From NCBI GenBank assembly GCA_009920665.1, contig RFZL01000027.1, forward strand, positions 1 to 32,407: 32,407 bases of DNA, given 5' to 3'. Every line of letters starts with the position of its first letter. Position 1 is the first letter of the stretch. This document shows positions 30,867-32,407 of this stretch, piece after piece. Below the pieces are notes generated by a model. The model had not been told where the DNA came from. It worked only from the letters and a program-made list of their open reading frames with translations, and made no database searches. A program made the position numbers and the translations under genes. This DNA is from Alphaproteobacteria bacterium (GTDB lineage Bacteria; Pseudomonadota; Alphaproteobacteria; Puniceispirillales; Puniceispirillaceae).

Positions 30867-30908
30867 CATAGACAGGCGTCTGACTGACATAGACAGGCGT
30901 CTGACTGA
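30867..30908. repeat. Perfect 21-bp tandem duplication upstream of DUF805 gene
   Basis: A 21-base unit starting CATAGACAGG and ending GTCTGACTGA lies at 30867-30887 and again, identical, at 30888-30908. Related fragments flank it (CAGACGC at 30861, GTGTCTGACTA at 30913). It ends 28 bp before the DUF805 start, in the divergent intergenic region 30659-30936. No gene is recognised in that region. Confidence 0.95.
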
Positions 30909-30936
30909 CCAAGTGTCTGACTAACAGGCTGACAGA

Positions 30937-31710
30937 ATGAAACTTCGTCCCTTATTGGAAAATCCGTTCCGGAACTATGCCGTGTTTGCCGGGCGGGCGG
31001 GGCGCGCTGAATTCTGGCTCTTCATCCTGACCTTTGTCGTGATTACCCAGCTTGCCTGGGTGCTCGGCTTCGGAGTGATGAAGATTGCCGGCTTTGACAA
31101 TGGTCATGACGGGTCCTCAGCGCAACATCTGATGGGCCAGTCTGACTATGATGATGCTGCAACGGGCGAGACAGCCGGTGAACAGTCCGGTGACGATTCA
31201 TCTGTCGATGATGACGCAGACGATGCTGGCACCGGGGCCAAACCGGATCGCAGAGACCCGTCATCAGCGCTATCCGGCAAATACCATTCAGACAGGCATG
31301 ATGACGATATGATGAATTTCATGATCCACCGGCATGGGCGGGACGGATATCACCTCCATGGCATCATCCGAGATGATCACATGTTTGAATATGACGATGA
31401 GGATCTTGACGGTTCGGATCATCACCGGCGCCATGAATATAGTGGGGGACAGCGTGACCGACATGTCTATGTCCGGTTTCACGAGAGCCGCGCCGAACGC
31501 GGCGGGGATACTGTCTGGCTGATTGCTGTGGCGGGGCTGCTGTTGCCGCTATTTTCCGTCGGCGCGAGACGGCTCCACGACAGCAGCCATTCCGGATGGT
31601 GGCAATTATTGGCGCTGATCCCTGTCGCTGGCTGGCTGGTGCTGTTGATTTTCTTCCTGCTCCCGGGTGACGAGGACGAGAACCGGTTCGGGCCACCCTC
31701 AGTAATATAA
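30937..31710 (+). CDS. DUF805 family membrane protein with Asp/His-rich insertion
   Basis: A 257-aa inner-membrane protein; DUF805 proteins are normally about 120-150 aa and of unknown function. The family N-terminus FAGRAGRAEFWLF leads into TM1 (about 25-52). TM2 (about 193-209) is followed by the diagnostic RRLHDSSHSGWW and TM3 (about 221-243), and the protein closes with DENRFGPPS. Between TM1 and TM2, residues 53-190 form an insertion with about 26 Asp and 14 His, poor in hydrophobic residues. The first part is acidic and low in complexity (SVDDDADDAGTG), the second His-rich (MIHRHGRDGYHLHG, DHHRRHEY). By the positive-inside rule this loop should face the periplasm. The ATG at 30937 has only a weak upstream AGG. 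Metal binding is an inference. Confidence 0.88.
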   Translation: MKLRPLLENPFRNYAVFAGRAGRAEFWLFILTFVVITQLAWVLGFGVMKIAGFDNGHDGSSAQHLMGQSDYDDAATGETAGEQSGDDSSVDDDADDAGTGAKPDRRDPSSALSGKYHSDRHDDDMMNFMIHRHGRDGYHLHGIIRDDHMFEYDDEDLDGSDHHRRHEYSGGQRDRHVYVRFHESRAERGGDTVWLIAVAGLLLPLFSVGARRLHDSSHSGWWQLLALIPVAGWLVLLIFFLLPGDEDENRFGPPSVI

Positions 31711-31824: not shown

Positions 31825-32407
31825 TCACTGCCCCTCATTCAGCGCCGCTTCCGCTGCCATATGCTCGGCGATCGCCGCCTCTGTCTGGGCGTTATGCTCT
31901 TCGATATACTCAACCGCCTGCTCCAGATCAGCGGTGGAAATCCCTTCCCAGGCCGCCTCGGTTGCGGCTCTGGCGGCTTCATCGATATCAACCGATGCCA
32001 GCGCCTCGGAGACCTGTTCCTTCGTGGCTTCGATATGCTCCTCGGTGATCCCGCGCGCAAGGTCCGATGCATCAGGTGCGTTGGGCCCGATCTGTTCACC
32101 GGCTGCCTCGGCAATGATATCCATCATCTGTTCCCTGGATTTGCCACGCACATCCTTCACCGGCACGAACACCACATCTTCCCCGACAACGACGAAGATG
32201 TTCGACCCCCGAACGCCGGCCTTCTTGCCATCGCCAAACAACCCCCGGCTTTTCGATTGCACAACAATCGCGGCCCGCTGTTCCGGTGATGCGCCGGAAT
32301 AGACCTTGCCGTCACTCGACAGCACCTCACCGGATTTCAACGTCAGGGCACTCGCGGCACCGGCGGCGAAGACCATGACAGGCGCGAGCAGGAAAAAAGC
32401 TGATCTC
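31825..32407 (-). CDS. Exported protein of unknown function, 5'-truncated by window edge
   Basis: I do not recognise this family. The frame is open to the right edge. The codons before the internal ATG at 32376 read RSAFFLLAP, continuing into VMVFAAGAASALTL, so together they form a signal peptide and the true start most likely lies beyond 32407. Cleavage would be near AASA-LTL. The mature protein has a short beta-rich region (GEVLSSDGKVYSGAS, GSNIFVVVGEDVVFVPVKDV) followed by a long acidic helical C-terminal half rich in Ala and Glu (EEHIEATKEQVSEALASVD, YIEEHNAQTEAAIAEHMAAE). It is probably periplasmic. The convergent DUF805 gene ends 114 bp away, and nothing definite is seen in that gap. 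Confidence 0.75.
   Translation of the reverse strand, partial: RSAFFLLAPVMVFAAGAASALTLKSGEVLSSDGKVYSGASPEQRAAIVVQSKSRGLFGDGKKAGVRGSNIFVVVGEDVVFVPVKDVRGKSREQMMDIIAEAAGEQIGPNAPDASDLARGITEEHIEATKEQVSEALASVDIDEAARAATEAAWEGISTADLEQAVEYIEEHNAQTEAAIAEHMAAEAALNEGQ

Follow-up and report, generated by a model that had tools for sequence, protein, structure and literature searches.

Among the described members of the DUF805 family are YhaH and YhaI of Escherichia coli. The genes yhaH, yhaI and yhaJ have been reported to respond to CpxR (PMC2731931), and yhaH is required by the phages Wec188 and Wec190, infection being restored by complementation (PMC12548472). In the accessible parts of these two papers and of a third one (PMC3597751), no biochemical function is assigned to DUF805, and no description of a His-rich loop in a protein of this family was found in the accessible literature that was searched on DUF805, yhaH and yhaI. 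As regards metal-binding loops, that of Citrobacter koseri ZnuA adds zinc sites (PMC8900738). In PA4063, a periplasmic zinc-trafficking protein of Pseudomonas aeruginosa, the His-rich loops join in zinc binding with micromolar affinity and are disordered without metal, and a role as a chaperone or sensor has been proposed (PMC8561739). In the SAR116 clade, metal transport has been reported to vary between subclades (PMC12262181); these last three papers are likewise cited from their accessible parts.

The window (i.e. the whole stretch of 32 407 nucleotides that was analysed) is an entire contig, RFZL01000027.1, of a 2.69 Mb, 99%-complete draft genome of an alphaproteobacterium of the family Puniceispirillaceae. 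It carries a gene for a 257-residue protein (Table 1) which scores 84.7 bits against Pfam DUF805 (PF05656; gathering cut-off 25.7) and is the only DUF805 protein found in that genome. The near-invariant residues of the family, as judged on a 57-row alignment that includes the window protein itself, are present (G19, R20, R23, W27, R211, R212, L213, H214, D215, S219, G220 and W221); the motif before TM1 reads GRAGRAEFW, and that after TM2 reads RRLHDSSHSGWW. Hydropathy maxima lie at about residues 24–53 (TM1), 189–213 (TM2) and 219–246. The frame is coding, with a whole-length dN/dS of 0.24 against the syntenic relative G002 (80% identical). As is usual in the family, this inner-membrane DUF805 protein has three hydrophobic segments.

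DUF805 was detected at E ≤ 0.001 in 131 of the 386 genomes that were sampled from the class; the genome of E. coli, used as a search control, also contains it, and yhaH of an E. coli plasmid is annotated as DUF805. The window protein gave no score near the cut-offs in NCBIfam and only two weak matches in a PDB sequence search (E 1.4 and 1.5), in which the loop alone gave none. There was no match among phage records at E 1e-5, and 21 plasmid records matched, none of them covering 80% of the query. The PHROG family that matches the protein is classed under moron, auxiliary metabolic gene and host takeover. A close relative on a viral contig was considered and rejected: three stretches fitted the peptide pattern, and none was confirmed by tblastn.

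The preliminary description of this DNA had reported a loop of about 138 residues, rich in Asp and His, at 31093–31506. The loop is real. These positions encode residues 53–190, i.e. 138 residues, and counting gave 27 Asp (about 26 had been estimated) and 14 His, together with 7 Glu, 13 Arg and 2 Lys; the net charge is −19 (His excluded), and I, L, M, F, V and W amount to 19 in total. That the insert splits the family core between TM1 and TM2 was also borne out, both by the Pfam match, which falls into two stretches on either side of it (30976–31083 and 31510–31695), and by hydropathy. The N-terminus carries five basic and two acidic residues (+3) before TM1, an RR pair follows TM2, and the loop and the C-terminal tail are acidic; this distribution of charge fits a loop on the periplasmic side and an N-terminus in the cytoplasm.

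Table 1. Features of the DUF805 gene and of its insert (positions in the window; aa, residues of the product; dN/dS and gapped columns are against G002)
Feature	Position	Strand	Basis
DUF805 membrane protein gene, 257 residues, long loop	30937..31710	+	Pfam PF05656, E 8.1e-24; syntenic relatives
N-terminal segment and TM1 (aa 1–52), family motif GRxxRxEFW	30937..31092	+	Hydropathy; dN/dS 0.07; pLDDT block means 87–97, residues 1–50
Insert (aa 53–190), predicted periplasmic, 27 Asp and 14 His	31093..31506	+	Composition; anchor spacing
Acidic variable linker (aa 53–123)	31093..31305	+	dN/dS 0.50, 16 gapped columns; no secondary structure, low pLDDT
Conserved core (aa 124–152), predicted strands aa 127–133 and 137–143	31306..31392	+	Identity to G002; two models
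H131-R132-H133, first invariant His pair	31327..31335	+	Invariant in five genus members; shuffle test
H139-L140-H141-G142, second invariant His pair	31351..31362	+	Invariant in five genus members; shuffle test
Second variable linker (aa 153–172)	31393..31452	+	dN/dS about 1.3 (few sites), 10 gapped columns
Segment before TM2 (aa 173–190)	31453..31506	+	dN/dS 0.13; other genus members keep little
TM2, RRLHDSSHSGWW motif, TM3 and C-terminus (aa 191–257)	31507..31707	+	Pfam 192–253; dN/dS 0.18; pLDDT block means 96–98, residues 191–250

The size of the insert was assessed by the anchor spacing, i.e. the distance from the motif before TM1 to the motif after TM2, on 153 loci. These yielded 108 distinct DUF805 frames, a sample that is not random, because the loci were gathered with queries made from the Pfam family and from the window protein and its alignment, and that omits frames missed by the motif pattern and the broken relatives G004 and G018. 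The median spacing was 47 and the 95th percentile 74, against 183 in the window. The spacing was 77 at most in 103 of the 108, which agrees with the earlier statement that a short segment between TM1 and TM2 is normal for DUF805. The larger spacings were 136 (G019, of the same family), 143 (G003), 144 (G008), 183 (window) and 208 (G002); all but the first come from one genus, that of the window. It should be noted that a looser pattern, applied to 16 stretches from the class chosen for long or split matches, gave a frame in seven of them, with spacings of 42–96, so that moderately longer DUF805 versions exist elsewhere. At most two His lie between the anchors in 102 of the 108 frames, and HxH does not occur there in any of the 103 shorter ones. 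The protein of G019 (L027 6920–7501), which has 8 His in its own long loop and a different gene neighbourhood, is perhaps an independent expansion.

Selection on the different parts of the insert was estimated by Nei–Gojobori counting against G002, the nearest relative; the numbers behind the regional values in Table 1 are small. In the core, all 29 residues are identical in the two proteins, and the codons differ by nine synonymous and no nonsynonymous changes, an outcome that has a probability of 0.0018 given the protein-wide nonsynonymous share of 61/121. Over the rest of the insert (residues 53–123 and 153–190), dN/dS is about 0.5 and 27 columns are gapped. The Asp-rich stretches are the least conserved part of the insert, and the signal sits in the hairpin: purifying selection acts strongly on the four-His core, and the linkers are drifting.

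The same contrast holds within the genus. In all five loop-bearing members (the window and the truncated G004 included), the four His are kept in the pattern H-R-H-x(4,5)-[YWL]-H-[LF]-H-G. The alignment of these five loops has 10 invariant columns, in the order G (at the loop start), H, R, H, G, H, H, G, H, H; the six His are H95, H97, H103, H105, H112 and H130 in the numbering of the first row, and the last two of these columns depend on the alignment. A second alignment has seven invariant positions, from which H112 is missing and of which one Arg and two Gly are not metal ligands. Aligned by themselves, the four diverged loops share 13 invariant columns, including 6 His columns, with 8 falling in a span of 20 columns; the corresponding averages for shuffled loops were 3.0, 1.2 and 1.6, and none of 300 trials reached the observed values, a result that overstates the surprise to some degree, since shuffling does not preserve relatedness. 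Absence or random variation of the loop in close relatives, which the preliminary description had named as evidence against its proposal, was not seen, because the gene-bearing members of the genus have the loop and keep the key His, while most else varies.

A profile of the core, built on the window, G008, G003 and G004, was searched against 136 genomes of the order and matched five genus members with E values from 2.3e-17 to 3.5e-14. Since four of these are the profile's own rows, G002 is its only outside find. Nothing comparable was found in the order outside the genus, where the next best match (E 0.002) lay on another contig of G018; matches of any kind at E ≤ 1 occurred in 36 of the 136 genomes. 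In the class, 21 of 385 genomes had a match at E ≤ 0.1, and the best one besides the window had E 7.3e-4 over 15 positions of a 99-residue frame. The loops of the syntenic proteins from two other genera are unlike this one and contain some His.

The AlphaFold2 model of the window protein, built on 57 rows, has a confident membrane core (block means in Table 1) and an insert without secondary structure except for the two strands of the conserved core and the beginning of the TM2 helix at residue 185. A short helical turn connects the strands, and the block 131–140 has a mean pLDDT of 69, i.e. moderate; the core is predicted to be a β hairpin. A model of the G008 protein (five rows, mean pLDDT 46, poor) has one hairpin, at 89–97 and 101–109, over the same motif, and is not independent of the former because their sequence rows overlap. 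The strand limits are symmetric in both models, so that H131 would pair with H139 (H95 with H103 in G008). This pairing, along with strand alternation, would place H131, H133, H139 and H141 all on one face, with a hydrophobic face opposite; the five positions of the latter are hydrophobic in all four sequences. The PDB fold search gave no matches at E values up to 10, and none of six chains that were re-checked had Z ≥ 2. The best match in a viral fold search was the DUF805 protein of phage DSS3_VP1 (E 0.09).

The reading that we tentatively favour, at a little less than an even chance, is that of a modest-affinity periplasmic metal site, formed by a membrane-anchored four-His hairpin on flexible acidic tethers. 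In one genus of the SAR116 clade of marine Alphaproteobacteria, the TM1–TM2 loop would have grown into a periplasmic accessory module, made of disordered acidic linkers that carry a single amphipathic β hairpin. The four His would bind a transition-metal ion (zinc, or possibly nickel, cobalt or copper) with modest affinity at the periplasmic surface of the inner membrane. The tethers, rich in Asp, would raise the local concentration of cations and leave the hairpin mobile, and by these effects the protein could buffer metal or report it to a partner or to the DUF805 core itself. A more far-reaching version, in which metal at the inner-membrane surface switches the activity of DUF805 through the new four-His site of this genus, appears doubtful indeed.

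This commitment, with docking (see below) as the main rival, rests on the register of the His, the amphipathic hairpin and the analogy with the ZnuA loop, weighed against a missing palindrome and envelope-related neighbours; the sample is small, comprising five such loops. Of the functions put forward in the preliminary description, metal buffering or sensing is made plausible by the kept residues, which include four His on one predicted face of the hairpin, and is weakened because the window has no znuA-like palindrome and the gene is dispensable. Cation delivery, which had also been put forward, found no direct support.

A ZnuA-family protein encoded in the genome of the window carries an Asp/His-rich loop, and the family was matched in 9 of 12 genomes of the genus, including G001, which lacks the DUF805 gene, so that this co-occurrence does not discriminate. 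Upstream of znuA in two genomes of the genus there is a perfect palindrome, ATGTTATACTATAACAT (L244 1367–1383 in G000, the genome of the window, and L245 1334–1350 in G001), which we take to resemble a Zur box and which is perhaps the site of the zinc-uptake regulator. The window contains no such palindrome within three mismatches. Within two mismatches, the whole genome of the window has only the znuA palindrome, a count which alone means little because a reversed control pattern also occurred in one place; what sets the znuA site apart is that it recurs without a mismatch ahead of znuA in both genomes. The missing znuA-type site is compatible with other metal regulators, and does not exclude them. 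In this ZnuA-family protein of the window's genome (L244, G000:C113:73392-74279), the Asp/His-rich loop is repeated and the stretch that follows it (NPHVWLDP in G001), which presumably holds a zinc ligand, is lacking; the gap could be genuine or due to a repeat that collapsed in the assembly.

The DUF805 gene is syntenic in the window, in G002, G003, G004 and G008 and in two members of other genera of the family (G016 and G018). As far as the contigs reach, the order is LptD, a GNAT pair, the DUF805 gene and, further on, glmS and a gene that we take to be glmU; the LptD, GNAT and glmS domains were assigned by Pfam. The recognized neighbours, which also comprise glycosyltransferases, are mostly concerned with envelope synthesis, and no metal genes are among them. 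DsbD was considered for a 718-residue neighbour and rejected, as the protein is LptD. Immediately before the DUF805 start, at 30867–30909, there is a perfect 21-base tandem duplication, the second copy of which is lacking in G002 (80% identical) when the upstream regions are aligned. A search for sigma-70-like promoters around the gene gave none, against 1.0 in shuffled sequences. The gene is adjoined by one on the minus strand (31825–32376) for a secreted-looking 183-residue protein with no Pfam match, of which there are two neighbouring copies in G002 and two matches each in G001 and G011.

These neighbours enter into the first alternative, namely that the hairpin is a docking or dimerization element, whose hydrophobic face and Arg bind a partner or a second copy of the protein. 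The linkers would then be solubility spacers, and the His would serve packing or hydrogen bonds rather than metal. This is unlikely, but it is a serious contender: it agrees with the uniformly hydrophobic face opposite the His and with R132 and G142, whose invariance equals that of the His, and LptD, glmS and glmU offer possible partners in envelope biogenesis. However, it gives no reason why four His in an HxH…HxH register should be the main invariants.

The second alternative is low-complexity drift, i.e. a disordered tract grown by chance in a tolerant and dispensable protein, with a metal-binding appearance that is due to composition. The history of the gene bears on this. Its frame is intact in 4 of 12 genus genomes (the window, G002, G003 and G008). 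G004 has only the N-terminal part and the loop, G011 has a remnant of about 35 residues beside the GNAT gene, in a frame with stops, and in G001 (99% complete) the flanking genes are about 350 bases apart, with no DUF805 match between them. The gene is thus absent, truncated or decayed in three of the seven genus genomes that could be judged, i.e. excluding G005, whose contig ends past the GNAT gene, and G006, G007, G009 and G010, where the DUF805 and adjoining GNAT genes were not found. In G018, of another genus, two halves of the gene are in different frames. Because many of the genomes are fragmented drafts, truncations and frameshifts may be assembly errors, and the absence in G001 is the firmest case of loss. 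Where it occurs the module is therefore conserved, and yet it is dispensable.

Such losses fit drift, as do the indels and the dN/dS of about 0.5 over most of the loop and the unequal loop lengths within the genus (spacings 143, 144, 183 and 208). On the other hand, purifying selection is strong in the core, whose His persist in loops that can otherwise barely be aligned. Drift would account for the linkers and not for the core, for which it is already disfavoured, and as an explanation of the insert it is improbable.

Less probable still is variation driven by phages, by which a DUF805 protein that aids phage entry, as has been reported for YhaH of E. coli, would diversify its exposed loop and be repeatedly discarded. 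The requirement of Wec188 and Wec190 for yhaH (accessible part of PMC12548472), the fast variation of the linkers and the three genomes with an absent or broken gene can be read in this way. Against this, the only element of the loop that is predicted to be ordered is conserved rather than diversified, and a linker dN/dS of about 0.5 is no sign of positive selection; moreover, the effect of YhaH may be indirect, and its extension to SAR116 phages is an analogy. The least probable alternative, and a very improbable one, is a pH or cation sensor, in which protonation of the His cluster against the acidic linkers would shift the conformation of the loop and tune the DUF805 core: the His do lie together on one predicted face, with strongly acidic segments next to them, but no recognized neighbour suggests a link to protons, and seawater is well buffered.

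DUF805 is a known family, and the long-loop version with four His is a variant new to it. Its conserved hairpin makes the function of DUF805 testable in concrete terms, namely whether a metal is bound and whether the membrane protein is altered by metal. If the metal-switch reading were true, it would provide a first chemical handle on the role of DUF805 in the envelope. The locus also illustrates how, within a disordered loop that drifts, a small membrane protein can acquire a conserved module of small size.

Compared with YhaH and YhaI of E. coli, the window protein has in common with them the motif GRxxRxE[YF]W before TM1 and RRLHD..SGWW after TM2, and differs from the usual DUF805 protein in its acidic insert of 138 residues with the four-His hairpin. 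Like the loop of the window protein, the ZnuA loop is rich in Asp and His and varies in length between congeners. However, ZnuA is a soluble binding protein whose loop here is made of His-dense repeats, whereas the His of the DUF805 loop are sparser and the key ones are fixed; no sequence relation between the two loops is claimed, and the window is without the znuA-like palindrome. PA4063 is likewise soluble, has a ferredoxin-like fold and is expressed under zinc deficiency; for the DUF805 loop it serves as a working analogy, with no claim of homology.
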